Below are positions 9,848 through 48,181 of a stretch of 52,042 nt of DNA, piece after piece. This DNA comes from Oscillospiraceae bacterium (GTDB lineage Bacteria; Bacillota; Clostridia; Oscillospirales; CAG-272): the NCBI GenBank assembly GCA_015063485.1, contig SVUA01000010.1, positions 1-52,042 of the forward strand, read 5' to 3'. The notes beneath the pieces are model-generated. The model made no database searches and had not been told where the DNA came from. It was given only the letters and a program-made list of their open reading frames with translations. A program made the translations under genes and the position numbers. Numbering within the stretch: position 1 is the stretch's first letter; every line of letters starts with the position of its first letter.

Positions 9848-9861
9848 GACGCAGGGGACGC

Positions 9862-9895
9862 GGTTACTTTTTCTTTCGCGAAAGAAAAAGTAACC
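9862..9895. repeat. 17-bp-arm palindrome after a stop codon
   Basis: GGTTACTTTTTCTTTCG is followed directly by its perfect complement. It begins 14 bp after the stop of the SIS gene and is preceded by GGGGACGCG. Copies at 37828-37861 and 41888-41921 have different bases but equally perfect arms. No T run follows on the sense side, so it is not a textbook terminator. The rest of the 152-bp gap to the next gene is AT-rich, with no other feature seen. Confidence 0.75.
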
Positions 9896-9999
9896 AAAAA
9901 GAAAGCAATACATGGGGTTGTTTTATATCCCATACAGTAAGTAAAAATTTTTAAAAAATTAAAAATAAAAAATATTTAAATTAAAAGGAGAATTTTACT

Positions 10000-36192: not shown

Positions 36193-37821
36193 ATGTCAGA
36201 AGCTGTTAAAAACAAAAAAACAAAAAAAGAACGCAAGGGTGATTCCTTTGGCGTACTTCAGCGCGTTGGACGCGCATTTATGCTTCCTATCGCGCTCCTA
36301 CCCATAGCGGGACTTTTGCTTGGAGTGGGCGCGTCGCTTACTAATGCGTCAATGCTTGAAGCCTACGGTCTTACGGGTATAATGGGCGAGGGTACTCTGC
36401 TTTATTCCATCTTTACCGTTCTATCCTCTGTCGGAAGCGTTATCTTCGACAACCTTCCTCTTCTCTTTGCCTTGGGCGTAGCGCTCGGTATGGCGCAAGC
36501 GGAAAAGGGTACGGCAACGCTGTCCGCCGCTATCGCGTTCTTCGTTATGCACAAAACGATAAGCGCGCTTCTCTCCATAAGCGGAAAGTTTGAAGAAGGC
36601 GTTATGCAGGAAGGAACTATTGCGAACGTCGTAGGCATCGAATCCTTGCAGATGGGCGTTTTCGGCGGTATCATCGTCGGTCTTGGCGTTGCGTTTTTGC
36701 ATAACAGGACTTACAAGATAAAGCTTCCAAACGTCATTTCATTCTTTGGCGGTACGCGCTTTGTTCCAATCATTTCAACGACTGTATATATTCTCGTCGG
36801 TGTTCTCATGTTCTTTATCTGGCCCTTGGTGCAGAACGGTATCTATGCGCTCGGCGACCTCGTACTGAAATCGGGCTACGCGGGAACGCTTATATACGGT
36901 TTTATCGAGCGAATACTCATTCCTTTTGGACTTCATCACGTATTCTATCTTCCGTTTTGGCAAACGGGAGTCGGCGGCTCTGCTATAATCGAGGGAGTTC
37001 GCATATTCGGCGCGCAAAACATCTTCTTTGCCGAACTTGCGTCAAGTACAACGACACAGTTCTCGGTATCGGCGACGAGATTCATGAGCGGAAAGTTCCC
37101 ATTTATGATATTCGGTCTACCCGCCGCAGCTCTTGCTATGTATAGCTGCGCCAAGGATACAAAGAAAAAGGTTGCGGGAGGTCTTCTTCTCTCGGCGGCG
37201 CTGACCGCTATGCTCACGGGTATTACCGAGCCTATCGAGTTTACCTTCCTTTTCGTTGCGCCCGTGCTTTACGTCATTCACTCGATACTCGCGGGACTTT
37301 CCTATATGCTCATGCACGCCTTGAACGTTGGCGTCGGCATGACTTTTTCGGGCGGACTTATTGACTTCTTCCTCTTCGGTGTGCTTCAGGGCAACGAAAA
37401 AACAAATTGGATAATGATTCCCCTCGTCGGTATAGTCTACTTCATTATTTATTTCTTCCTTTTCAGATTTATGATAAGAAAGCTTGACTACGTTACCCCC
37501 GGACGTGAGGACGACCTTGAGGAAACCAAACTCTATACCCGTGCCGATTATAATGAAAAGAAGGCTTCGGAAGCCGCGGGCGGCGACCAGATCAGCGCGA
37601 TGATACTCGACGGTCTGGGCGGCAAGGACAATGTCGTGAGCGTTGACTGCTGCGCAACACGATTGCGCGTGACCGTAAAGGATATCGAAAAGGTGTCCGA
37701 CGCAACACTCAAAGCAAGCGGCGCGGCGGGCGTTATCAAGAGCGGCAGCGGCGTTCAGGTCATCTACGGTCCTAGAGTCTCGGTAATTAAGAGCGAACTT
37801 GAGGAATATATGGGTATTTAA
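36193..37821 (+). CDS. PTS sugar transporter EIICB (glucose/maltose family)
   Basis: This 542-residue permease imports and phosphorylates a sugar. The EIIC membrane domain (residues ~20-430) has LQRVGRAFMLPIALLPIAG, the GITEPIEF signature and about ten hydrophobic segments. The C-terminal EIIB domain carries the phosphorylated cysteine near residue 487 in CCATRLRV. There is no EIIA domain, so phosphate must come from an EIIA encoded elsewhere. The ATG at 36193 follows AAAAGGAG; an ATG ten codons earlier has no ribosome site. Sequence fits the maltose/glucose EIICB group, but specificity is uncertain. Confidence 0.88.
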   Translation: MSEAVKNKKTKKERKGDSFGVLQRVGRAFMLPIALLPIAGLLLGVGASLTNASMLEAYGLTGIMGEGTLLYSIFTVLSSVGSVIFDNLPLLFALGVALGMAQAEKGTATLSAAIAFFVMHKTISALLSISGKFEEGVMQEGTIANVVGIESLQMGVFGGIIVGLGVAFLHNRTYKIKLPNVISFFGGTRFVPIISTTVYILVGVLMFFIWPLVQNGIYALGDLVLKSGYAGTLIYGFIERILIPFGLHHVFYLPFWQTGVGGSAIIEGVRIFGAQNIFFAELASSTTTQFSVSATRFMSGKFPFMIFGLPAAALAMYSCAKDTKKKVAGGLLLSAALTAMLTGITEPIEFTFLFVAPVLYVIHSILAGLSYMLMHALNVGVGMTFSGGLIDFFLFGVLQGNEKTNWIMIPLVGIVYFIIYFFLFRFMIRKLDYVTPGREDDLEETKLYTRADYNEKKASEAAGGDQISAMILDGLGGKDNVVSVDCCATRLRVTVKDIEKVSDATLKASGAAGVIKSGSGVQVIYGPRVSVIKSELEEYMGI

Positions 37822-37827
37822 GGACGC

Positions 37828-37861
37828 GGTTACTTTCTTTTTCGCGAAAAAGAAAGTAACC
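37828..37861. repeat. 17-bp-arm palindrome after a stop codon
   Basis: GGTTACTTTCTTTTTCG is followed by its perfect complement, 7 bp after the PTS gene and preceded by GGACGCG. Compared with the copy at 9862-9895, the T and C order differs in both arms together, so pairing is kept. Confidence 0.75.
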
Positions 37862-37921
37862 AAAGAAAAAGCATGAGCAGGGTATAGTCTATTTACTGTT
37901 AAGTTAAAACTCGCTTTTTTA

Positions 37922-37956
37922 AAGAAAGGGTCGAGCCCCAAAGAACTTCACTAAAA
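37922..37956 (+). repeat. 35-bp dispersed segment, copy 1
   Basis: This segment starts AAGAAAGGGTCGAGCCCCAA and ends CTTCACTAAAA. An identical copy lies inverted at 42159-42193. It sits between a post-stop palindrome and a REPIN-like element in both places. Confidence 0.7.
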
Positions 37957-37998
37957 AGGTTTTATGTGTCGCCGTTTTGTATTGTTTTAATTGAATGA

Positions 37999-38126
37999 AA
38001 CGGACAGTCGACGCCTGTCACTACAGAGTTAAATGAAAGATGAATCGTTTTTTGTCGCCTTACTGCGAGGGACATACAAACGATTTTCTCAAATCTTGTA
38101 GGGACCGGCGTCCTCGACGGTCCGTT
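37999..38126. repeat. REPIN-like palindromic element 1
   Basis: The right end reads GTAG followed by a GGACCG/CGGTCC hairpin (38098-38123). The left end (38001-38024) is the inverted unit, decayed, with a GGACAG/CTGTC stem. An inner ATCGTTT/AAACGAT pair and a central GTCGCC hairpin complete the symmetric element of about 128 bp. The surrounding gap from 37822 to 38273 holds no gene, only this element, the palindrome, the 35-bp segment and the next promoter. Confidence 0.7.
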
Positions 38127-38168
38127 ATAAAAAAGCAAAAATCAACACTGTAAAATTTCATTTATCAA

Positions 38169-38197
38169 TTGACAAATATCGACATATATGATACAAT
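38169..38197 (+). promoter_or_regulatory. promoter of the AraC-type gene
   Basis: TTGACA (38169-38174) and TACAAT (38192-38197) are separated by 17 bp, with TG before the -10 box. Confidence 0.7.
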
Positions 38198-38273
38198 ATC
38201 CTTGTTAAATAAGGATTTTTTTAATATATCTATGTGTTGAAAAATAAAATACGTATCGGAGGCTTTTAAAGTA

Positions 38274-39059
38274 ATGAAAAAATTTGACATATCCAATCTT
38301 ATCATCACACAGATCTGCGACGCGTACAGTTATACCTTGGAAGAGGAGACCGTAACCAAATCCGTCTGTGAGCATTGTGTCCTCATTATAAAACGCCGAG
38401 GCGCTACTAAATACACGGTAGGAAGCAAGAGCTTTACCGCCGATGCGGAACGCGTTCTTTTTCTCCCCGCAAACTGCGAATACGAGATGCAGATAGAGGA
38501 AGAGGGCGAGTGCACGGTAATTGAATTTGACGTTATAGACGCGGAAGCTCTTTATCCTTGCGAATTTTACTCGGACAGCGAGGGAGATATTGCCGCTTCT
38601 GCTAAAAATCTGTTGCTTTATTGGAAGCTTCAAGGTCCTGCGTACCGCTCAAAATGTCTCTCCGAGCTTTACGACCTCATAACCCAGCTTTCAAACATCA
38701 TGTCAAGCGCGGATTCTTTAGTTGGAAAATATCCGCTTATTCACCGCTCTGTAAAATACATAGAAAAGAATTATCACAAAATAGACCTCTACACGCCCGC
38801 ACTTGCCAAAATGTCGGGCATCGGCGAGACCTATTACCGCAGTATATTCCTTGCGGTATTCCATATGCCCCCCGCACGCTACATACAAAAATTCAGAATA
38901 GATAAGGCAAAGGAGCTTCTCGTTTCCTCGGGCGGTTCTATTGAGGATATCGCTGTTTCTACGGGCTTTGCAAACGCATCTTATTTTTGCAAGGTATTCA
39001 AATCGGTAGTTGGTATAACTCCCACCGAATTCGCGCAAAAGAGCCGCCGCTTCGGTTAA
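38274..39059 (+). CDS. AraC-family transcriptional regulator
   Basis: This 261-residue protein has an N-terminal cupin-like sensing domain (GSKSFTADAERVLFLPANCE) and a C-terminal double helix-turn-helix. DLYTPALAKMSGIGETYYRS is followed by SIEDIAVSTGFANASYFCKV and ending FKSVVGITPTEF, the AraC signature. It probably controls sugar genes; the adjacent PTS permease and HAD phosphatase are candidates. GGAGG lies upstream of the ATG with about 11 bp spacing. Confidence 0.9.
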   Translation: MKKFDISNLIITQICDAYSYTLEEETVTKSVCEHCVLIIKRRGATKYTVGSKSFTADAERVLFLPANCEYEMQIEEEGECTVIEFDVIDAEALYPCEFYSDSEGDIAASAKNLLLYWKLQGPAYRSKCLSELYDLITQLSNIMSSADSLVGKYPLIHRSVKYIEKNYHKIDLYTPALAKMSGIGETYYRSIFLAVFHMPPARYIQKFRIDKAKELLVSSGGSIEDIAVSTGFANASYFCKVFKSVVGITPTEFAQKSRRFG

Positions 39060-39074
39060 CATGAAAGGACAAAA

Positions 39075-39842
39075 ATGAAAGATTTCTCGGATATTCTCAT
39101 ATGTTCGGATTTTGACGGAACGCTTTATCACGGCAAGCGACTATGTGTCTCCGATACAGATGCAGAGGCGATCCGCTATTTTCAAGAACACGGCGGAGCG
39201 TTCACACTTTGCACAGGACGTTTCCCATCTGTTTTGAGAGACAAAAATATTACCAACGTAACCCTAAACGCGCCTATGATATGCATGAACGGTGCGCTTA
39301 TATACGATTTGAAAAGCGAAAAAAAGCTCTTTGAAGAAATTATGAGTGTCGATGTTACCGAAGTTATCCTTAAAATATGCGAAAAGAACGAGCATATAGA
39401 AAAAATATTTTTACCTATACACAACAACATCTCAGAAACAAATTATTGCTCCCCATATGAAACAGATCAAATAAAAGACTTTATAGAACAAGGCGTATAT
39501 AAGATAGTATTTCACATAGTTCCCGAGCATTGTGACGAAGCGCTTGAACGTATAATTGCGCTGACACCCGAAAAATTTGCGCTCTCACGCAGTTGGAAAA
39601 CGGGGTTTGAGATCCAACAGGCTGCCGCATCTAAAGGTCTATCTGCCCGTAAGGTCGCAAATATGTTAGGAAGAAAAAAACTTATTTGCGTAGGAGACTA
39701 CGAAAACGATGTCTCTATGATAAAAGAAGCCGATATCGGCTACGCCGTCGCAAATGCCTGCGAGCCTCTGAAAAAAATAGCCGACCGCATTACAGAAGCA
39801 AAGGTCGGCGGCGCTATCGCGGAGATAATATACTCGCTTTGA
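39075..39842 (+). CDS. Cof-type HAD phosphatase
   Basis: This 255-residue protein is a HAD hydrolase of the Cof type, which dephosphorylates sugar phosphates or related compounds. Motif I is SDFDGTL with Asp12 and Asp14, motif II is TLCTGR, and motif IV is ICVGDYENDVSMI. The cap domain lies between motifs II and III. It starts 15 bp after the AraC stop, so the two are probably co-transcribed. Confidence 0.88.
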   Translation: MKDFSDILICSDFDGTLYHGKRLCVSDTDAEAIRYFQEHGGAFTLCTGRFPSVLRDKNITNVTLNAPMICMNGALIYDLKSEKKLFEEIMSVDVTEVILKICEKNEHIEKIFLPIHNNISETNYCSPYETDQIKDFIEQGVYKIVFHIVPEHCDEALERIIALTPEKFALSRSWKTGFEIQQAAASKGLSARKVANMLGRKKLICVGDYENDVSMIKEADIGYAVANACEPLKKIADRITEAKVGGAIAEIIYSL

Positions 39843-39933
39843 TAGAACTCTCTTTTTCCTAAATAATTCAAACAAATTGCAGTTTGTCGGGGAGATCGTT
39901 ATATCGATTGATTGGTTAAAATCGTTTGTATTA

Positions 39934-40056
39934 GGACCGTCGAGGACGCCGGTCCCTACAAAATAAATTATGATCGTTAGAGTTTCCCATCGCCTCACGG
40001 CGAGGTATATGTGTACAATTTTTACACACTGTAGGGACCGGCGTCCTCGACGGTCC
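39934..40056. repeat. REPIN-like palindromic element 2
   Basis: Perfect 26-bp terminal inverted repeats (39934-39959 and 40031-40056) each consist of GTAG plus a GGACCG/CGGTCC hairpin, GTAG facing inward. TCGCC/GGCGA forms a small hairpin exactly at the centre (39990-40003). It fills most of the 312-bp gap between the HAD gene and ymdB; nothing else was seen there. Confidence 0.8.
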
Positions 40057-40154
40057 ATTGCCGTTCGGTTAAATTTATGCGAACATAACACACCGACAAA
40101 TCAAAATTTAACAACAAAAAAAACAACTAACAACCTGATAGAAAGAAAATACCC

Positions 40155-40928
40155 ATGATAAAAATTCTTACCCTTGGCGACGTCGTCGGCACTTCTGCCG
40201 TCGAATACTTAAAAAACAATCTTTGGAGCTTTCGTAGCTCCGTAGGCGCTGACTTCGTCGTTGCAAACGGAGAAAACGCCGCAGACATACACGGCATATC
40301 GGCAGTCAATGCTCAAGACCTGTTTGACTCGGGCGTTGACCTCATCACACTTGGAAACCACACTTACGGCAGACGAGATATCTGTACCCTGCTATCCGAT
40401 TCGCAAAACATTATAAGACCCGCAAACTATCCTCCGCTTGCCCCCGGTAGCGGTTATACTATCCTTAACATCTGCGGTTGGCGCATACTCGGAATAAATA
40501 TTCTCGGAACGGCGCTCATGGATTCCATGGCGTGTCCTTTTGCAACGGTAGACAGAATACTTGAACGCGAAAGAGGAAGCTACGATATTGCTCTACTTGA
40601 TATCCACGCCGAAGCAACGAGTGAAAAAAATGCGCTCGGCAGATATTTTGACGGCCGCATACACGTTATTTTCGGTACGCATACACACGTCCCCACCGCC
40701 GACGAGCAGATTTTGCCAAAAGGAAGCGGATACATAACAGATATCGGTATGACAGGACCTGTCAATAGCGTTATAGGAACGGATATTGATGCTGTAATCG
40801 AAAAAATGCGGACAAAAATGCCCGTAAGATTCACCGTCGCGGGCGGAGACGTCCGAGCTCAAGGCGCACTATTTACTCTTGACACCGACAGTATGAAAGT
40901 CATACACGTCGAGCGGGTAACTTTTTGA
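40155..40928 (+). CDS. ymdB: YmdB-family metallophosphodiesterase
   Basis: This 257-residue enzyme belongs to the YmdB/TIGR00282 family, which in Bacillus hydrolyses 2',3'-cyclic nucleotides and affects motility versus biofilm choice. Metal-site motifs are ILTLGDVVG, VANGENAA, TLGNHTYGR, LDIHAEATSEK and FGTHTHVPTADE. No strong ribosome site is seen; GAAAGAAAA is the best match. mrnC follows 22 bp downstream. Confidence 0.92.
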   Translation: MIKILTLGDVVGTSAVEYLKNNLWSFRSSVGADFVVANGENAADIHGISAVNAQDLFDSGVDLITLGNHTYGRRDICTLLSDSQNIIRPANYPPLAPGSGYTILNICGWRILGINILGTALMDSMACPFATVDRILERERGSYDIALLDIHAEATSEKNALGRYFDGRIHVIFGTHTHVPTADEQILPKGSGYITDIGMTGPVNSVIGTDIDAVIEKMRTKMPVRFTVAGGDVRAQGALFTLDTDSMKVIHVERVTF

Positions 40929-40949
40929 CAAGAAAGGCTTTGTTTATCT

Positions 40950-41342
40950 ATGGAGCAATTACTTAACACCTACTCTACTCACGCGCTTGCCTATCTTGGC
41001 GACAGTGTGATAGAAATATGCGTTCGCGAATATCTCGTGAAATCGGGTATATCTTCGTCCGCAAAGCTAAACAAAACGGCTCTCGATTTCGTTCGTGCGC
41101 CCATGCAAGCAGAAGCCATGAAAAGACTTTTACCTTATCTTACCGAGGAAGAGGAAGCCGTATTCAAGCGCGGAAGAAATCTCGGACACTCAAGTACCCC
41201 AAAGTCCGCGACTGTTGCCGAGTACAGAGCCGCTACGGGTATGGAAGTACTTTTCGGATATCTGTATCTCGCAAAAAAACAAGAGAGAATAAACGAGCTT
41301 TTCTCGCTCGCTTATCCTCAAATCACAGAAGAAATCAATTAA
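40950..41342 (+). CDS. mrnC: ribonuclease Mini-III
   Basis: This 130-residue protein is a catalytic RNase III domain without a double-stranded RNA-binding domain, the Mini-III form that matures 23S rRNA ends. The conserved AYLGDSVIEICVREYL near residue 14 and STPKSATVAEYRAATGMEVL near residue 80 hold the acidic metal ligands. Length matches the family. It lies between ymdB and a cyclophilin gene on the same strand. Confidence 0.93.
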   Translation: MEQLLNTYSTHALAYLGDSVIEICVREYLVKSGISSSAKLNKTALDFVRAPMQAEAMKRLLPYLTEEEEAVFKRGRNLGHSSTPKSATVAEYRAATGMEVLFGYLYLAKKQERINELFSLAYPQITEEIN

Positions 41343-41369
41343 ATTTTATACATCGAAAGGAATAACAAA

Positions 41370-41876
41370 ATGAACAACCCTATTATTAAGATCAACGTAC
41401 GCGATTTTGGCACTATGACCGCAGAGCTCTATCCCGAAAAAGCTCCTAAAACAGTCGCCAATTTCGTAAAGCTCGCAGAAGAAGGCTTCTTCTCGGGTCT
41501 TATCTTTCACCGTATCATTAAGGGATTTATGATCCAAGGCGGCGGTTACGACGAGAATATGGAGCACAAGGAAGCTGAAGCTATCAAAGGCGAATTTAAG
41601 GCTAACGGCTTTATGCAGAACGACCTTAAGCATACTCGCGGAGTTCTCTCTATGGCTCGTACTCAAGACCCCGATTCCGCTTCCTCGCAGTTCTTCGTTA
41701 TGCATATGGACGCTCCTCACCTCGACGCGCAGTACGCAGGCTTCGGTAAAGTCACCGAGGGTCTTGATGTCCTCGATGCTATCGCTTCCGTTAAAACGGG
41801 CAACTTCGGCTGGTATATGCAGGACGTTCCCAAAACTCCCGTTATTATCGACAGTATTGAGGTTGTTAGTAAGTAA
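41370..41876 (+). CDS. cyclophilin-type peptidyl-prolyl isomerase
   Basis: This 168-residue cytoplasmic cyclophilin speeds proline isomerisation during protein folding. The catalytic arginine is in IFHRIIKGFMIQGG, and the substrate groove is marked by SMARTQDPDSASSQFF and GFGKVTEGLDVLD. No signal peptide is present. CGAAAGGA precedes the ATG. Confidence 0.95.
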   Translation: MNNPIIKINVRDFGTMTAELYPEKAPKTVANFVKLAEEGFFSGLIFHRIIKGFMIQGGGYDENMEHKEAEAIKGEFKANGFMQNDLKHTRGVLSMARTQDPDSASSQFFVMHMDAPHLDAQYAGFGKVTEGLDVLDAIASVKTGNFGWYMQDVPKTPVIIDSIEVVSK

Positions 41877-41887
41877 GAACGAATTAT

Positions 41888-41921
41888 GCTACTTTTTTCT
41901 TTCGCGAAAGAAAAAAGTAGC
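41888..41921. repeat. 17-bp-arm palindrome after a stop codon
   Basis: GCTACTTTTTTCTTTCG is followed by its perfect complement, 11 bp after the cyclophilin gene. It differs from the other two copies at paired positions only (for example GCTAC/GTAGC instead of GGTTAC/GTAACC). Confidence 0.75.
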
Positions 41922-41990
41922 AAAAAAAGAAAGCAAAACAGAGGTTATATAAATATAACCGTTTGTAAAATTTATATTTGTTTGTTTTTA

Positions 41991-42114
41991 GGACAGTCGA
42001 GGACGCCTGTCCCTACAAGATGTGAAAAAATCGTTTGCATATTTCTCGCCGCAAGGCGATAGAAAAACTTTCGATTTTATATAGCTTCGTAGGGACAGGC
42101 GTCCTCGACTGTCC
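41991..42114. repeat. REPIN-like palindromic element 3
   Basis: Perfect 26-bp terminal inverted repeats (41991-42016 and 42089-42114) consist of GTAG plus a GGACAG/CTGTCC hairpin. Relative to element 2 both stem strands changed together (CG to AG and CG to CT), keeping the pairing. A central TCGCC/GGCGA hairpin is present. With the palindrome and the 35-bp segment it fills the 352-bp gap between the cyclophilin gene and hisIE. Confidence 0.8.
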
Positions 42115-42158
42115 GTTTCATTCAATCAAAACAAAACAAATGGCTACATATAAAGCTG

Positions 42159-42208
42159 TTTTAGTGAAGTTCTTTGGGGCTCGACCCTTTCTTGCGGGGA
42201 AAGGGTCG
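42159..42208 (-). repeat. 35-bp dispersed segment, inverted copy, with hairpin
   Basis: 42159-42193 is the exact reverse complement of 37922-37956. Next to it CGACCCTTT and AAAGGGTCG (42182-42208) form a hairpin about 20 bp beyond the hisIE stop on the minus strand, preceded there by GGGGACGCG. It may end or stabilise the histidine operon mRNA. Confidence 0.65.
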
Positions 42209-42228
42209 AACGCGTCCCCTCGCGTCCC

Positions 42229-42879
42229 TCACTTCGTCATCTTTTCCTGCTTGACCTTGTGGTCGATAACGTGGCGGGAGGCGAGCTCCTTGTGGATATC
42301 CTCCAGAGAGATGCCCATTTGTATCATAAGCACCATAAGGTGATAGGTAAGGTCTGCAATTTCGTAGACCGTTTCGGCTTTATCGTCTGCTTTACCCGCA
42401 ATAATGACCTCTGTAGATTCCTCGCCGACTTTTTTAAGTATCTTATCTATTCCCTTTTCAAAGAGATAGGTGGTATAAGAGCCTTCCTTTTTCTCGGTCT
42501 TTCTGCCTTCGATAAGGCTCATAAGGCTCTGCAAGGAGAACTCATGTCTTTCGTCGCTCTGCCACAGAGGGTTTTCAAAGCAAGACGTAGTTCCAAGATG
42601 GCAAGCAGGTCCGTCAGGCTCAACGACAACGACAAGAGCATCCTTGTCGCAATCGGCTGTGATGCTTACGATATGCTGATAATTTCCGCTCGTCTCACCT
42701 TTAAGCCAAAGCTCCTGACGGGAGCGGCTAAAGAAGCAGGTAAGTCCCTTCTCCATAGATATTTCAAGACTTTCACGGTTCATGTAAGCGAGTGTCAGAA
42801 CACGCTTCGTAATAGAATCGACTACTATTGCGGGAATAAGTCCCTTTTCATCAAATTTAAGTTCATTTATGTTTATCAT
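42229..42879 (-). CDS. hisIE: bifunctional phosphoribosyl-AMP cyclohydrolase / phosphoribosyl-ATP pyrophosphatase
   Basis: This 216-residue protein fuses the HisI cyclohydrolase (residues ~1-105) and HisE pyrophosphatase (~115-216), steps 3 and 2 of histidine synthesis. HisI shows [31 protein letters not shown] and the metal cysteine in [12 protein letters not shown]. HisE shows [27 protein letters not shown] precedes the ATG. It is the last gene of the operon. Confidence 0.95.
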
Positions 42880-42891
42880 TGTTTTTCTCCT

Positions 42892-43650
42892 TTATATTCT
42901 CATAGGAATTCCGTTTGCTAAAAGCTCACGCTTGAGATCGGAAATATCGACCTCATGGAAATGGAAGATAGATGCCGCAAGTCCCGCGTCCACCTTTGGA
43001 AGAGTTTTAAAGAGGGTCGTAAAGTGGTCGATACAGCCCGCGCCTCCCGATGCTATAACGGGAACGGATACCGCATTGCAGACAGCGTCAAGCATTTCAA
43101 GGTCAAAGCCCTGCTTTACGCCGTCGGTATCGATAGAATTGAGTACGACCTCACCTGCGCCCATATCAACGCAACGCTTTATCCACGAGATAGCCTCCAT
43201 ACCCGTGTTCTCGCGTCCGCCCTTTGCAAACACGCGGAACACACCGTCAACGCGCTTGACGTCTGCCGAAATAACGACGCATTGGTCGCCGTAACGCTTT
43301 GCCGCCTCGCGCACAAGCTCGGGATTGCGGATAGCTCCCGAATTAACGCTTACCTTGTCCGCACCGCATTTGAGAACTCTGTCGAAGTCGTCAAGCGTAT
43401 TGATACCTCCGCCGACTGTGAGCGGAATAAATATCTGACTTGCCACCTCGCAAAGAATATCGGTAAAGAGAGCTCGTCCCTCGGAAGAAGCCGTAATATC
43501 GTAAAACACAAGCTCGTCCGCACCGTTGTCACTGTAATATTTCGCAAGTTCGACGGGAGAGGAAACATCGTTAAGTCCTAAAAAATTAACACCTTTAACG
43601 ACTCTGCCGTTTTTAACGTCAAGGCAAGGAATAATACGTTTAGTTATCAT
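42892..43650 (-). CDS. hisF: imidazole glycerol phosphate synthase subunit HisF
   Basis: This 252-residue TIM-barrel subunit forms imidazole glycerol phosphate and AICAR using ammonia passed from HisH. It begins MITKRIIPCLDVKNGRVVKG, the conserved start with the catalytic aspartate. Other landmarks are TVGGGINTLDDFDR, GADKVSVNSGA and VIASGGAGCIDHF. Its ATG overlaps the hisA stop (ATGA). Confidence 0.96.
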   Translation of the reverse strand: MITKRIIPCLDVKNGRVVKGVNFLGLNDVSSPVELAKYYSDNGADELVFYDITASSEGRALFTDILCEVASQIFIPLTVGGGINTLDDFDRVLKCGADKVSVNSGAIRNPELVREAAKRYGDQCVVISADVKRVDGVFRVFAKGGRENTGMEAISWIKRCVDMGAGEVVLNSIDTDGVKQGFDLEMLDAVCNAVSVPVIASGGAGCIDHFTTLFKTLPKVDAGLAASIFHFHEVDISDLKRELLANGIPMRI

Positions 43651-44360
43651 TTTGCCACCTCGATAGCCTCACGGAGCGAAATAGCTCCCGTGTAATACGC
43701 CTTGCCGATTATCGCGCCGTAAAGTCCGCGAGCGGCAAGCTTTTTTACGTCCTCGATAGACGAAACTCCGCCAGACGCCACTATCTGCATATCGAATTTC
43801 TCGGACAGTTCTCGGTAAAGCTCGTGGTTCGTTCCCATCATCGCACCGTCCTTTGATATATCGGTGCAAATGATAGTACGTACGTGGAGACTCTGCATCT
43901 TCGCAAAGAAGGCTTCTGCCGTAAGGTCGCTCGTCTCGGTCCAACCCTTGATAGCTACCTTTCCGTCCTTTATATCAGCGCCAACGGCAATACGCTCGCC
44001 GTATTCCGAGGTAGCTTTTGCCACAAAATCGGGGTCGGTCACCGCCGCTGTTCCGAGTATTACGCGGTCAACCCCCGCATCGAGATAGGTCTTAACGGTC
44101 TCTATATTTCGAATACCGCCTCCGACCTCGCAAAACAGGTCGGTGTTTTCAACTATCTCCTTTATCGTTTCAAGATTCGGAGTTAGTCCGCTTTTCGCGC
44201 CCTCAAGGTCAACGAGATGCAAAAACTTCGCGCCCTCGCGCTCAAAATCCTTTGCCACCTCAAGCGGACGGTCGTTATAGACCGTCATCTGCGCGTAGTC
44301 TCCCTTGTAAAGACGGACCGCCTTACCTCCGAAAAGGTCTATTGCAGGAAAAATATTCAT
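43647..44360 (-). CDS. hisA: phosphoribosylformimino-AICAR ribotide isomerase HisA
   Basis: This 237-residue TIM barrel catalyses the fourth step of histidine synthesis. FPAIDLFGGKAVRL holds the catalytic aspartate, with VGGGIRNIETV and VASGGVSSIEDV as the phosphate loops. The ATG at 44360 was chosen because AGAGG lies 9 bp upstream; a TTG eight codons earlier overlaps the hisH stop and is a possible alternative. Confidence 0.95.
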   Translation of the reverse strand: MNIFPAIDLFGGKAVRLYKGDYAQMTVYNDRPLEVAKDFEREGAKFLHLVDLEGAKSGLTPNLETIKEIVENTDLFCEVGGGIRNIETVKTYLDAGVDRVILGTAAVTDPDFVAKATSEYGERIAVGADIKDGKVAIKGWTETSDLTAEAFFAKMQSLHVRTIICTDISKDGAMMGTNHELYRELSEKFDMQIVASGGVSSIEDVKKLAARGLYGAIIGKAYYTGAISLREAIEVAK

Positions 44361-44380
44361 GTGTGAATGCCTCTTTTTTA

Positions 44381-45001
44381 TCAATCTTTCATTTCGTTAA
44401 AGGAGCGCAAAATAGAAAGTCCTACTTTGCCGCTCTTTTCGGGGTGGAACTGACAGCCGTAAACGTTATCCATAGCGACTGCCGCCGTCAAAGGCGCGCC
44501 GTAATCAGCCGTAGCAATTACCGCCTCCTCGCAGTTTGCACCGTAATAGGAGTGTACGAAATAAACGTGCTCACCCTCGTTTACGTATTTGAAAAGCTCG
44601 TTCTTTTTCTCTCCGAAATGAAGAGCGTTCCAACCAATGTGCGGAATTTTAAGACCTTTTGGTATAACGTCGGAGATAGGTCTTATCTCGCCCTTTATAA
44701 GTCCGAGTCCGTCGTGTTCTCCGTACTCAAAGCTCTTATCGAGAAGCATCTGCATACCAAGACAGATACCGAGTATCCTTTTTCCCTTTTTCGCTTCATC
44801 AATGACTACTTCCGCAAGTCCGCAGTCGCACAGCTTCCTTGCCGCATCGCCAAACGCGCCGACACCGGGGAGAAGTATTTTATCCGCATCTCGCAAGACC
44901 TGCTTGTCCGCTGTAACTACCGTATCAGCCCCAACACATATAAGCGAGCTTTTGAGCGAAAAAAGATTTCCGACTCCGTAATCAACGATAGCTATCATCA
45001 A
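44381..45001 (-). CDS. hisH: imidazole glycerol phosphate synthase glutaminase subunit HisH
   Basis: This 206-residue class I glutamine amidotransferase supplies ammonia to HisF. The nucleophile cysteine is in GICLGMQML, the oxyanion region is LPGVGAFGDA, and the catalytic His-Glu pair is in GCQFHPEKSG. Its start overlaps the hisB stop by 4 bp. Confidence 0.96.
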   Translation of the reverse strand: MMIAIVDYGVGNLFSLKSSLICVGADTVVTADKQVLRDADKILLPGVGAFGDAARKLCDCGLAEVVIDEAKKGKRILGICLGMQMLLDKSFEYGEHDGLGLIKGEIRPISDVIPKGLKIPHIGWNALHFGEKKNELFKYVNEGEHVYFVHSYYGANCEEAVIATADYGAPLTAAVAMDNVYGCQFHPEKSGKVGLSILRSFNEMKD

Positions 45002-45585
45002 AGAGCCCCCTTGGTAGACGGTATCTCATCGGCAAAATCCTTGTCAATGGCTACCGCCTGCTTCATAGCTCTTCCGAACGCCTTGAACGCACCCTCTATT
45101 ATGTGGTGCGAGTTCTCTCCCGCGAGCTGTCTTACGTGGAGCGTACATTCCGCCGCTCTTACAAACGCAAAGAAAAATTCCTTTACAAGTTCGGTATCAA
45201 AGTCGCCAACCTTCTCACACGGGATATCGAGCGCGTATCCAAGATACGCTCTTCCCGAAAGGTCTACCGCCGCAACTACGAGCGTTTCATCCATGGGAAG
45301 CGTCATCGAGCCGTATCGAACGATACCTCTCTTTTCTCCGAGAGCCTCGGCAAAGGCTTTGCCAAGACAAATTCCCACGTCCTCTGCAGTGTGGTGGTAA
45401 TCGACCCAAGTATCTCCCTTGCAGCTAACGTCAAGGTCAAATCTGCCGTGACGCGCAAAAAGAGTTAGCATATGGTCGAGGAAGCCACAGCCCGTTGCTA
45501 TTTTGCTCTTTCCAACTCCGTCAAGGTCAAGAGTAAGCTCTATCTTCGTTTCATTAGTGTTTCTCTTTATCTCTGCTTGTCTCAT
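44998..45585 (-). CDS. hisB: imidazoleglycerol-phosphate dehydratase HisB
   Basis: This 195-residue protein is the monofunctional dehydratase (step 6). Metal-binding histidines are in GFLDHMLTLFARHG, DYHHTAEDVGI and AGENSHHIIEGAFKAF. It lacks the histidinol-phosphatase domain found in enterobacterial HisB. It overlaps the hisC stop by one base and hisH by 4 bp. Confidence 0.96.
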   Translation of the reverse strand: MRQAEIKRNTNETKIELTLDLDGVGKSKIATGCGFLDHMLTLFARHGRFDLDVSCKGDTWVDYHHTAEDVGICLGKAFAEALGEKRGIVRYGSMTLPMDETLVVAAVDLSGRAYLGYALDIPCEKVGDFDTELVKEFFFAFVRAAECTLHVRQLAGENSHHIIEGAFKAFGRAMKQAVAIDKDFADEIPSTKGAL

Positions 45586-46646
45586 TATCTCTCCTCCAGA
45601 ATACTTGCAATAGTATCAATAAGTGTCTGCATCTGTTCGCGAGTTCCTATCGTAATGCGGTTGTAATTGCTTATCGCCGCCTTATCAAAGTGGCGCACGA
45701 GAATACCTCTTTCCTTAAGCTTACGGTAAAGCTCCCCGCCCTCTATCCTGTCACTCTTGGCGAATATGAAATTCGTCGAAGATTCGGTCATGCTGAAACC
45801 TAATTTTTTAAGCTCGGAGACAGTATATTCTCTGTTTTCGACGATAGTTTTGCAGTTATTCATATTATAATCGTCATCACTTATTGAGCCGATACCCGCC
45901 GCCATAGTCATTGAGTTTATGTTGTAGGGATTTGTAGAATATTTGATAGTATTAAGGTCTGCGATAAGGTCGCGGCTTCCTATGCCGAAGCCAAGTCGTG
46001 CACCCGCCATTGAACGCGACTTTGAAAAAGTCTGCGTAACGAGAAGATTGTCGTACTTCTTTATGAGAGGCACACAACTCTCCGCTCCGAAATCGACGTA
46101 AGCTTCGTCAACGACAACTATGTTATCAGGGTTGCCCTTGACTATTTTCTCTATCTCCGTTACTGGAAGAGCTATTCCCGTCGGCGCGTTCGGGTTTGCT
46201 ATAAATATCGTACAGCCTATACCGATATAGTCGTCAACATTTATAGAAAAATCCTTGTTAAGCGGAATTATGCGATACGGCAAACGGTTTATCTCGGCAA
46301 ATACACTGTAAAAGCCGTAGGTTATATCGGCAAACGCCGCAGGCGTTTTATCGTCGCAGAACGCCATAAAAGCAAAGTTCAATATCTCGTCCGAGCCGTT
46401 TGTCATGAGTATCTCGTCGGTATTCACGCAAAAACGCTCCGCCATAGCCGCATTCAGAGCGCGGCATTCGGGGTCGGAATAAAGCTGAAGCTTCTTTGCC
46501 GCCTCTGCCGCCTTTTCCTGCGCCTTTTTCGACGGCGGAAAGGGTGACTCATTCGTATTGAGCTTTATGTATTGCATCTCCTTCGGTTGCTCACCCGGTG
46601 TGTAAGGCACTAAAGATGCGTATTTGTTGCTGAAAAATCTGCTCAT
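45585..46646 (-). CDS. hisC: histidinol-phosphate aminotransferase HisC
   Basis: This 353-residue PLP enzyme (step 7) has the lysine that binds PLP in TFSKSRSMAGARLGFG. Also visible are LNTNESPFPPS at the N-terminus, NGSDEIL, NPNAPTGIAL and the VDEAYVDFG aspartate. AAGGA precedes the ATG. It is separated from hisD by a 260-bp stretch holding a REPIN-like element and a long palindrome, the only large gap in the operon. Confidence 0.95.
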   Translation of the reverse strand: MSRFFSNKYASLVPYTPGEQPKEMQYIKLNTNESPFPPSKKAQEKAAEAAKKLQLYSDPECRALNAAMAERFCVNTDEILMTNGSDEILNFAFMAFCDDKTPAAFADITYGFYSVFAEINRLPYRIIPLNKDFSINVDDYIGIGCTIFIANPNAPTGIALPVTEIEKIVKGNPDNIVVVDEAYVDFGAESCVPLIKKYDNLLVTQTFSKSRSMAGARLGFGIGSRDLIADLNTIKYSTNPYNINSMTMAAGIGSISDDDYNMNNCKTIVENREYTVSELKKLGFSMTESSTNFIFAKSDRIEGGELYRKLKERGILVRHFDKAAISNYNRITIGTREQMQTLIDTIASILEER

Positions 46647-46676
46647 GGTTTGTAGTTCCTTTTTTCTTTCGTAAAC

Positions 46677-46805
46677 GGACAGTCGAGGACGCCTGTCCCT
46701 ACAATGTAAAAATTAAAATTGTGTTGTTACACCGTCGCCTACGGCGAGAGATAATTTAACGAATTTTTCCCTTAACCATGTAGGGACAGGCGTCCTCGCT
46801 TGTCC
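46677..46805. repeat. REPIN-like palindromic element 4, inside the his operon
   Basis: Terminal inverted repeats (46677-46702 and 46780-46805) are the GTAG plus GGACAG/CTGTCC units, with a few mismatches at the right end (GGACA/TGTCC still pairs). A TCGCC/GGCGA hairpin lies near the centre. It sits between hisC and hisD, which are otherwise packed in one operon. Confidence 0.78.
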
Positions 46806-46862
46806 GTTACAAACAATTACAGCGAAACAAACACAAAAAACAACTTGCAAAAAATTCTTTGA

Positions 46863-46900
46863 GAGTTCGAGAACTTTCTTTTAAGAAAGTTCTCGAACTC
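46863..46900. repeat. 18-bp-arm palindrome after hisD
   Basis: GAGTTCGAGAACTTTCTT and its perfect complement are separated by two bases. On the minus strand it starts 6 bp after the hisD stop and is preceded by GAGGACGA, like the GGGACGCG before other post-stop palindromes in this window. A T run follows only about 10 bp later, so termination would be partial at most. Confidence 0.75.
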
Positions 46901-46906
46901 GTCCTC

Positions 46907-48181
46907 TCAATCCTCTAATCTGACCACCGCGCTCTTTGCGTGGGCGGTAAGACCTTCCTTTTCGGCAAAGAAGGCTACGTCGCGTGCGACTCTTTCGAGG
47001 GCGTCCTTTGTATAATAGGTATATTGCGTTTTCTTAACGAAGTCATCGACCGAAAGAGGACTTGAGAACTTCGCCGTTCCGCTCGTGGGAAGCGTATGGT
47101 TAGGACCTGCGAAATAATCTCCGAGAGCCTCGGGGCAATTTCTGCCCATAAATATCGAACCTGCGTGACGTATAGCATCAAGATAATCAAATGGATTGTC
47201 AACGCAAAGCTCAAGATGCTCGGGAGCTATCTCGTTTGCTATATCGATAGCCGCAAGAAGAGTATCCGCGACTATTATCTTTCCGTTTTTATCGATAGAT
47301 TCTCTTGCTATCTCGGCGCGCTCAAGCAGAGGTATCTGTCTCTCAAGCTCGGTACTTACCGCTTCCGCAAGTGCGTAAGAGTCAGTAACGAGAACTGCGC
47401 TCGCCATTCTGTCATGCTCCGCCTGTGACAAAAGGTCTGCCGCCACGTGACGCGCGTTGCTCTTGCCGTCGGCAACTATAAGTATCTCGCTCGGCCCTGC
47501 TATCATATCGATAGATACGACACCGAACACCTGCTTCTTTGCCTCGGCAACGAACGCGTTGCCCGGTCCTACTATCTTATCTACCTTCGGTACGCTTTCC
47601 GTACCGTAAGCGAGAGCCGCTACCGCTTGCGCTCCGCCGACCTTGAAGATGCGGTCGATACCCGCTATCTTTGCCGCCGCCAGAATTACGGGATTCACCT
47701 TTCCCTCTTTGTTTGGAGGAGTAACCATTACTACCTCGCGGCAGCCCGCGATCTTTGCGGGGATCGCGTCCATAAGAACAGTGGAAGGGTAAGCCGCCGT
47801 TCCGCCGGGAACGTAAAGTCCAGCCTTGTCTACGGGAATCACCTTTTGCCCTACGACGATACCGTTTTCATTGTTTATAATAAAGCTGTTGCGAACCTGC
47901 TTTTCGTGAAAGGCTCGGATATTTTTAGCCGCCTTTTCAAGTATCTCGACAAATTTCGGCTCAACTGCCGCAAAAGCCTCGTTTATCTCGTCTTCGCTTA
48001 CGACGAGAGAGGAAAGAGATGCGCCGTCAAATTTCTTGCAGTAATAAAGCAAAGCCTTATCTCCGTCCTTGCGAACGTTTGCGATAATGTCCGCAACTGT
48101 TGCCTCTACGTTTACCGTAGGCACTGCGCGGGAGAATATCTCACTGTTCGATACCTCTCCGTATTTAAGTATATTTATCAT
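46907..48181 (-). CDS. hisD: histidinol dehydrogenase HisD
   Basis: This 424-residue enzyme oxidises histidinol to histidine with two NAD (last two steps). Conserved parts include YVPGGTAAYPSTVLM, VGPGNAFVAEAKKQVFG, DMIAGPSEI, the zinc region AEHDRMASAVL and EHLELCVDNP, and AGSIFMGRNCPEALGDYFAGPNHTLPT (27-residue block at the C-terminal third). GGAGG lies upstream of the ATG, which overlaps the hisG stop by 4 bp. Confidence 0.96.
   Translation of the reverse strand: MINILKYGEVSNSEIFSRAVPTVNVEATVADIIANVRKDGDKALLYYCKKFDGASLSSLVVSEDEINEAFAAVEPKFVEILEKAAKNIRAFHEKQVRNSFIINNENGIVVGQKVIPVDKAGLYVPGGTAAYPSTVLMDAIPAKIAGCREVVMVTPPNKEGKVNPVILAAAKIAGIDRIFKVGGAQAVAALAYGTESVPKVDKIVGPGNAFVAEAKKQVFGVVSIDMIAGPSEILIVADGKSNARHVAADLLSQAEHDRMASAVLVTDSYALAEAVSTELERQIPLLERAEIARESIDKNGKIIVADTLLAAIDIANEIAPEHLELCVDNPFDYLDAIRHAGSIFMGRNCPEALGDYFAGPNHTLPTSGTAKFSSPLSVDDFVKKTQYTYYTKDALERVARDVAFFAEKEGLTAHAKSAVVRLED

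Follow-up and report, generated by a model that had tools for sequence, protein, structure and literature searches.

The window analysed here is the whole of a 52,042-nucleotide stretch of DNA (contig SVUA01000010.1, positions 1 to 52,042) from the genome GCA_015063485.1 of an Oscillospiraceae bacterium, and our subject is a family of short repeats with four copies in it, together with the transposase that probably moves them. A first-pass annotation of the window had likened the four repeats to REPINs, pairs of inverted repetitive extragenic palindromic (REP) sequences in which GTAG stands beside a hairpin, and all of them are present where it had placed them. E1 (37999-38126) is a mixed copy, with a left end of the A/T type that carries a 3-bp deletion and a right end of the C/G type, and E2 (39934-40056) is a C/G-type copy whose 27-bp inverted ends are perfect. 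E3 (41991-42114) and E4 (46677-46805) are of the A/T type, the latter lying between hisC and hisD. No strand is assigned to the elements as such; their end units lie on the plus strand at 38098-38123 (GTAGGGACCGGCGTCCTCGACGGTCC, right end of E1, C/G type), 40031-40056 (E2, C/G type), 42089-42114 (E3, A/T type) and 46780-46805 (E4, A/T type, 2 mismatches), and on the minus strand at 39934-39959 (E2, C/G type), 41991-42016 (E3, A/T type) and 46677-46702 (E4, A/T type). The small TCGCC/GGCGA hairpin described for the middle of the elements was found at 39990-39994/39999-40003 in E2, at 42046-42050/42055-42059 in E3 and at 46735-46739/46743-46747 in E4, and is damaged in E1.

The inverted GTAG-hairpin ends were confirmed for seven of the eight ends in the window, which fit GGACNGTCGAGGACGCCNGTCCCTACA or its reverse complement with at most 3 mismatches. 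The 27-bp end pattern thus gave 7 window matches at this threshold versus 0 expected from 100 shuffles, and the eighth end, the left one of E1, has one mismatch besides its deletion. As single-stranded DNA, E1 to E4 fold far better than their shuffles (z -5.9, -10.9, -12.2 and -9.9, respectively). All four lie in gaps between genes that are supported by Pfam or, for hisD, by relatives; two mechanical reading frames of 141 and 102 amino acids that overlap E2 and E3 were taken as spurious. That four copies in 9 kb are striking could not be upheld: random placement of about 48 elements puts four within 8.8 kb in about 5% of cases, and the clustering argument was therefore dropped.

The genome is a draft of 1.97 Mb in 65 contigs, 87% complete. 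A search through it returned 97 end units of the form GTAGGGACNGGCGTCCTCGACNGTCC at no more than 3 mismatches (49 forward, 48 reverse), so copies are not few, and the reversed pattern used as a control gave 0 matches. They yielded 39 complete inverted pairs, 119-129 bp long, with their GTAG feet inward. The compensatory stem change first seen in the window holds in this larger set, as positions 9 and 22 of the unit are A/T in 38, C/G in 36 and otherwise in 3 of the 77 ends from the 39 pairs, and both ends are of the same type in 35 of the 39. Five pairs face the opposite way (convergent pairs), one of them belonging to the transposase gene described below. Many of the lone units could be accounted for, by eye, by their position at the end of a contig, by damage to the partner or a nested insert in it (L040, L056, L059), or by collapse to one hairpin (L030, L034). 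In the latter two loci (L030:374 and L034:1001, contig C17) composites have one hairpin left, with the spacer and the second end lost, and these copies look as if they had collapsed between short repeats. Among 118 genomes, this one included, the unit family was matched in 48.

Being intergenic and hairpin-forming, the elements could also be ordinary terminators or chance inverted repeats. We consider this very improbable, as none were expected by shuffling, the reversed control was empty, and a search of positions 37000-47500 against Rfam gave no match above the gathering score, its four matches all being far below. The copy number and the 26-nt identity kept over dozens of copies in the genome refute it.

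The transposase of the genome

The repeats had been attributed to mobilisation by a RAYT (REP-associated tyrosine transposase) of the Y1 HUH class, whose gene was expected to be flanked by the same unit. A search of the genome with PF01797 (Y1_Tnp) gave no match; its RAYT scores under the cut-off and lies in two frames. The gene came to light when the convergent unit pair at C16:4476-4672 was read; it spans C16:4283-4791 on the minus strand, reads VGSGVLDGPQIELTKYGQIADKYIHQLNDFYDDLSVESYVIMPNHIHIMLWVKGTGNGPSRTPVPT, has an in-frame C/G-type unit around NHIH and retains the motif YIYENP. A Y1 RAYT bearing the unit of the family supports mobilisation by such an enzyme, but the expected flanking arrangement was not found: the unit is inside the gene, and the 3-kb locus holds just the two internal units. 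With a profile built from 16 RAYTs, C16 was the only RAYT locus in the assembly (207 bits). The first part of the gene sits in another frame, and hence the gene is broken or mis-assembled; its relative in the Oscillospiraceae metagenome-assembled genome (MAG) SIG685, L120, has an open frame of 169 amino acids and 92-94% protein identity to it.

The same profile detected one solved relative, TnpArep of E. coli (4er8, E 6.5e-11). The NCBIfam model NF047646, 'REP-associated tyrosine transposase', matched all four proteins tested, one of them above the cut-off, and gave the RAYT fragment of this genome 51.2 bits, below the cut-off of 80. Across 54 RAYT sequences H84, H86, Y152 and N156 are invariant, corresponding to the HUH motif and a single-tyrosine motif with NP. 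In the relatives, weak matches to PF01797 (about 20-31 bits) were RAYTs, and strong ones were TnpA proteins of the IS200 type, which served as a negative control. No DDE transposase with matching ends was met: none of eight window proteins scanned is a transposase, and among five convergent close pairs that were read the only one to enclose part of a gene was that of the Y1 RAYT; this negative covers the window proteins and these five pairs, the genes between more distant copies not having been surveyed.

Unit pairs inside RAYT genes

In a first look at relatives, a GTAG-hairpin unit occurred twice, the two inverted to each other, inside 18 of 20 RAYT frames, and later also in L091. We then compared 106 distinct full-length frames from relatives and named contigs, mostly Clostridia MAGs, after 18 of 124 distinct frames that fell short of full length had been set aside. 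Allowing up to 3 mismatches in 22, an inverted GT[AG]G-hairpin pair lies inside 91 of the 106, which is an upper view since the set includes best matches to a unit-bearing query. All 91 genes have the forward unit in frame 0; the start of the inverse unit falls in frame 1 in 85 of them and in frame 0 in 6, and 49 different forward sequences occupy these two places. In a class-wide draw a RAYT was found in 69 of 391 genomes, and the strict pair in 40 of 68 near-full-length RAYTs (this sample may overlap the set of 106); of these 40 genes, 39 have their forward unit in frame 0. Most of the other 28 have a single unit, generally located between HUH and the tyrosine, or two units that are too divergent; no hairpin unit was found in six of the 68 by reading through the list (L272, L279, L301, L307, L318, L319). 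The internal pair was absent from all 18 IS200-type TnpA frames (of 20 loci, 18 gave a frame by motif) and from E. coli rayT. A cognate unit outside the gene but within 600 bp was present for 9 of 82 RAYT genes, and the usual flanking arrangement of a REPtron is thus rare here. The distance from HuH to the tyrosine has a median of 65 (range 57-84). In L119 and L187 the unit-encoded peptide stands in tandem within the RAYT gene (L119: VGTGVLDCPQTVGTGVLDCPQ), which suggests repeated gain of the unit inside the gene.

The codons point to what has been kept at these places. In the protein alignment alone, Val-Gly is found in loop 1 of 50 of 54 RAYTs, and its codons are GTA GGG in 50 of 50, where elsewhere in the same genes GTA makes up 28% and GGG 21% of the respective codons. 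Pro-Thr in the second loop is written CCTAC in 39 of 45, CCT being 14% of the other proline codons. For VGxxxxxxP, as encoded by units of the 26-nt class, codon 3 is the exact reverse complement of codon 8 in 64 of 66 genes, the facing pairs being ACA/TGT, ACC/GGT, GGC/GCC, GTC/GAC, GAC/GTC, GCC/GGC, GAT/ATC, GCT/AGC, CGC/GCG, GCA/TGC, GCG/CGC and AGC/GCT; two amino-acid positions covary because their codons pair in the hairpin. A first codon count of 53/53 was conditioned on pairing, which the counts 64/66 and 50/50 are not. Over 25 distinct in-gene units, 99.5% of the cells of the stem pair and 26 cells have both sides changed, neither value being reached by any of 500 shuffles; a pair survived in 2 of 1820 synonymous shuffles. 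Within one gene, the loop-1 and loop-2 units differ on average by 2.5 of 22 bases, compared with 7.5 between genes (44 genes, unfiltered; an earlier within-gene value of 0.59/22 came from units preselected for no more than 3 mismatches), the difference within the gene being at most 3 in 36 of the 44 genes and 11-14 in 5. Kinship among the genes inflates some of these counts, codon choice hardly. The GTA GGG and CCTAC codons show a lasting constraint on the DNA, not on the protein. In all 25 units a purine-purine mismatch at columns 11/20 of alignment A4 breaks the stem (G/A in 15, A/G in 7, A/A in 3), and it perhaps resembles the bulge that E. coli TnpA-REP is described as needing (PMC8266576).

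The in-gene units may also have no role, being insertions tolerated in permissive loops of the protein while the RAYT moves REPINs in the ordinary way. Quentin et al. (2018) take in-gene REPs to be of this kind, lying in a peripheral region away from the DNA site (PMC6006769), and REPs within unrelated genes are known (PMC3733652); moreover, unit-less RAYTs with a loop 1 of equal length exist (L154, L174), six of the 68 RAYTs of the class sample lack a hairpin unit, and many have one only. However, tolerance does not readily account for 49 different forward sequences at the same two places in 91 genes, always in frame 0 (39 of 40 in the class sample), nor for the codon choice at GTA GGG and CCTAC, and we regard it as a serious though less probable explanation. 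A second alternative is that the in-gene pair serves mainly in RNA control, limiting synthesis of the RAYT through pairing in the messenger RNA (mRNA) or through binding of the protein, and that intergenic REPINs act mainly as transcript ends or stabilisers. The four window copies do sit in intergenic gaps, and in the one gene folded, L120, the RAYT mRNA from unit to unit forms one long stem (-102 kcal/mol, z -10.8). This explanation appears unlikely, as RAYTs with a single unit exist and as it leaves two results given below unexplained, namely the enrichment of dispersed units alongside a matching RAYT and the absence of E4 from relatives. For the in-gene pair, a role as substrate is favoured over these two less probable explanations, because the GTAG foot and the stem have been maintained at the DNA level in either orientation, and because matching dispersed copies are enriched.

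Dispersed copies, composites and the hisD-hisC locus

Exact unit patterns were counted in the 118 genomes. The A/T or C/G unit occurred in 37, the VGEGLAPP type in 26, the N-CGAC type in 17 and the VGAIHESP type in 21. By these counts, in the 31 genomes with read RAYTs, the mean number of units outside those RAYTs, with versus without a RAYT holding that unit, was 22.2/8.3, 10.4/3.6, 19.3/1.6 and 7.3/1.3 for the four types, with G004 standing on the wrong side, its VGEGLAPP RAYT having been missed by the motif. On average, dispersed copies are commoner where a read RAYT holds the matching unit, with many exceptions. Genome G012 has four RAYT matches, two of which hold GTAGGGGTCGACGTCCTCGGCGACCC (L090) and GTAGGGGGCGACGTCCTCGACGCCCC (L190), and these two sequences make up 27 of the 29 dispersed copies of the class among the 33 of 40 places listed. 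In G007 the inverse-unit sequence of the RAYT recurs in 14 of 15 copies outside the RAYT, and in G003 all four dispersed copies among the 8 of 35 places listed have it. In G028, among the 33 of 38 places listed, 30 of 31 dispersed copies agree with one unit of the pair in its RAYT. The idea that dispersed REPINs were cut out of the RAYT gene was tried and dropped: in the loci of this genome other than L026, a RAYT protein gave only weak short matches, located on units or next to them.

Past mobility can be judged at E4. The element is absent from all 26 relatives in which both hisC and hisD were found (three further loci showed no hisD); the gap between the two genes is 6-103 bp in these relatives and free of the unit types searched, compared with 264 bp in this genome. 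The extra DNA consists of the REPIN E4 and a neighbouring palindrome, and the insert may therefore exceed the REPIN. The HisC protein of this genome is 30-64% identical to those of the relatives, and for this reason the exact empty site is unreadable.

Repeats larger than the REPIN surround many copies. Inspected by eye, 14 C/G-type copies have both outer flanks in common for 50-60 bp, these flanks having imperfect inverted ends, and a different set of flanks, with hairpins of its own, recurs around many A/T-type copies. In the window, 37922-37977 and 42138-42193 (no strand assigned to either) are inverted partners at 89% identity and belong to a larger composite around A/T-type copies. The C/G-type REPINs sit, again by eye, in a composite of about 240 bp whose imperfect outer inverted ends are like AAATTKYGRTTTRTCGG, at window positions 39890-40110 and in L006, L013, L035, L036, L039, L044, L047, L048, L053-L055, L060 and L061. 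The elements might accordingly be passengers of larger composites that resemble miniature inverted-repeat transposable elements (MITEs), with outer ends of this kind, and be moved by another transposase. The shared flanks fit this explanation, as do the palindrome in the extra hisD-hisC DNA, the existence of copies without a matching RAYT, and direct repeats abutting the elements that are slightly longer than with permuted flanks (mean 2.77 versus 1.70, 0 of 300 permutations being as high). Yet the shared flanks inflate this direct-repeat signal, in which the longest repeat is 5 bp; for several copies (L031, L052, L011, L028, L030) no flank in common with others was seen by eye, and across the class the unit is associated with RAYT genes. 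We consider it improbable that the elements are such passengers.

Other repeats were seen as well. An insert of about 75 bp with the palindrome AACATCACACTGTGATGTT occupies the same point of the right-end hairpin loop in three REPINs, of both unit types (L040:1111, L056:1113 and, on the minus strand, L059 about 1115; contigs C24, C42 and C45), and seems to be a nested element that targets the unit. A palindrome like GGTTACTTTTTCTTTCGCGAAAGAAAAAGTAACC forms an intergenic family near E1 and E3, at window positions 9856-9907, 37822-37873 and 41882-41933, the second and third copies being 88% and 63% identical to the first. A third unit type, GTAGGGTCTGACGTCCTCGACAGCCC, in opposite orientation and enclosing hairpins like GTAGGGGAGG, was found at L044:1001-1178 and L052:3948-4125 as a nested family.

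Taken together, we favour the reading, with a probability of roughly 0.8, that the elements are REPINs, i.e. non-autonomous pairs of GTAG hairpins that are mobilised in trans by a RAYT whose gene, in this clostridial lineage, usually holds an in-frame inverted pair of the same kind. It is a reading of sequence comparisons, in which the family, its pairing and covariation, the in-frame pair, the constraint at the nucleotide level, the enrichment of matching copies and the presence or absence of E4 are themselves direct results. The RAYT would be a Y1 HUH single-strand transposase of the TnpA-REP kind. The RAYTs of E. coli, Stenotrophomonas and Marinomonas act on a single-stranded hairpin with a GTAG foot, close to which they cleave at C|T (or C|A) (PMC8266576); by analogy, the RAYT here may bind GTAG and the hairpin in single-stranded DNA, cut nearby and transfer the element to a new site. 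With one unit before the HUH motif and one between it and the catalytic tyrosine, transposase and substrate would share a stretch of DNA, and the pair may be kept since the protein must stay matched to the DNA substrate in its own gene.

Several points weigh against this reading. No movement of the elements was observed, and the RAYT of this genome is frame-broken (or mis-assembled), with an unpaired base in its forward unit, so that spread may have stopped. Part of the copy number may belong to the composites, because most copies of the genome nest, by eye, in shared-flank repeats. About half of its ends are of the A/T type, and no A/T-type RAYT was found in the 87% complete assembly; besides the RAYT, similarity to RAYTs is confined in its loci to weak short matches (E 0.003-0.009) on units or next to them. 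Of the two units in the G028 RAYT, just one has counterparts among the dispersed units listed for that genome. Units without a read RAYT of their type occur in many genomes, for example 26 in G028 and 10 in G012, and G015 has 72 A/T-or-C/G units while its one RAYT match holds VGEGLAPP; only part of the RAYT places of these incomplete genomes was read.

Known systems and meaning

REPs and RAYTs outside Gammaproteobacteria have been reported before (PMC3733652, PMC6006769). None of the titles and abstract openings that the literature searches returned describes REPINs or RAYTs in gut clostridia, though subclass 2.4 of Quentin et al. (2018), which has hosts in Cyanobacteria, Bacteroidetes and various phyla, may include some. 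In tnpA-REP genes of that subclass, REPs lie in frame, generally between HuH and Y (PMC6006769). The genes described here resemble them in having in-gene REPs between HuH and Y with the frame unbroken, and in the motifs NHIH, WQ and a tyrosine motif ending in NP. They differ in that the units are often paired in inverted orientation, the first one preceding HuH, and that flanking units are rare (9/82); the HuH-Tyr distance has a median of 65, compared with 88 for subclass 2.4 (PMC6006769). The text of that study that was consulted does not describe a first unit ahead of HUH, inverted pairs, covarying codons or a scarcity of flanking units; its supplement (Figures S6, S10) could show paired insertions.

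As in the REPINs of Pseudomonas fluorescens SBW25 (Bertels and Rainey 2011, PMC3116915), two inverted REPs and a spacer can form one long hairpin, and there are many intergenic copies linked to a RAYT. In contrast to SBW25, the phylum is another, the RAYT gene has the unit within it and seldom beside it, and many copies are nested in composites. RayT/TnpA-REP of E. coli (4ER8) is akin by sequence profile and has a GTAG-hairpin substrate (PMC8266576), whereas its gene has no internal unit and has GTAG-headed sequences on both sides. Rickettsia palindromic elements and intragenic REPs are likewise palindromic repeats read in frame within genes, but their host genes are unrelated, many acting in DNA replication or repair (PMC3733652), whereas here the host gene is the transposase.

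The RAYT gene may even be its own substrate and a record of specificity, the in-frame pair being a REPIN-like master site whose encoded peptides (such as VGTGVLDGP and NGPSRTPVPT) help to recognise the same hairpin, although we hold this further step to be quite doubtful. If it were true, a compensatory stem change would alter substrate and protein in one step, and a new REP family and its matching transposase would arise together. The results place REPINs and RAYTs in gut clostridia. They bear on how RAYTs and repeat families stay matched while both change, as the transposase gene itself contains a matching sequence, in many cases twice, and what is conserved there is the DNA, the encoded peptide being variable.

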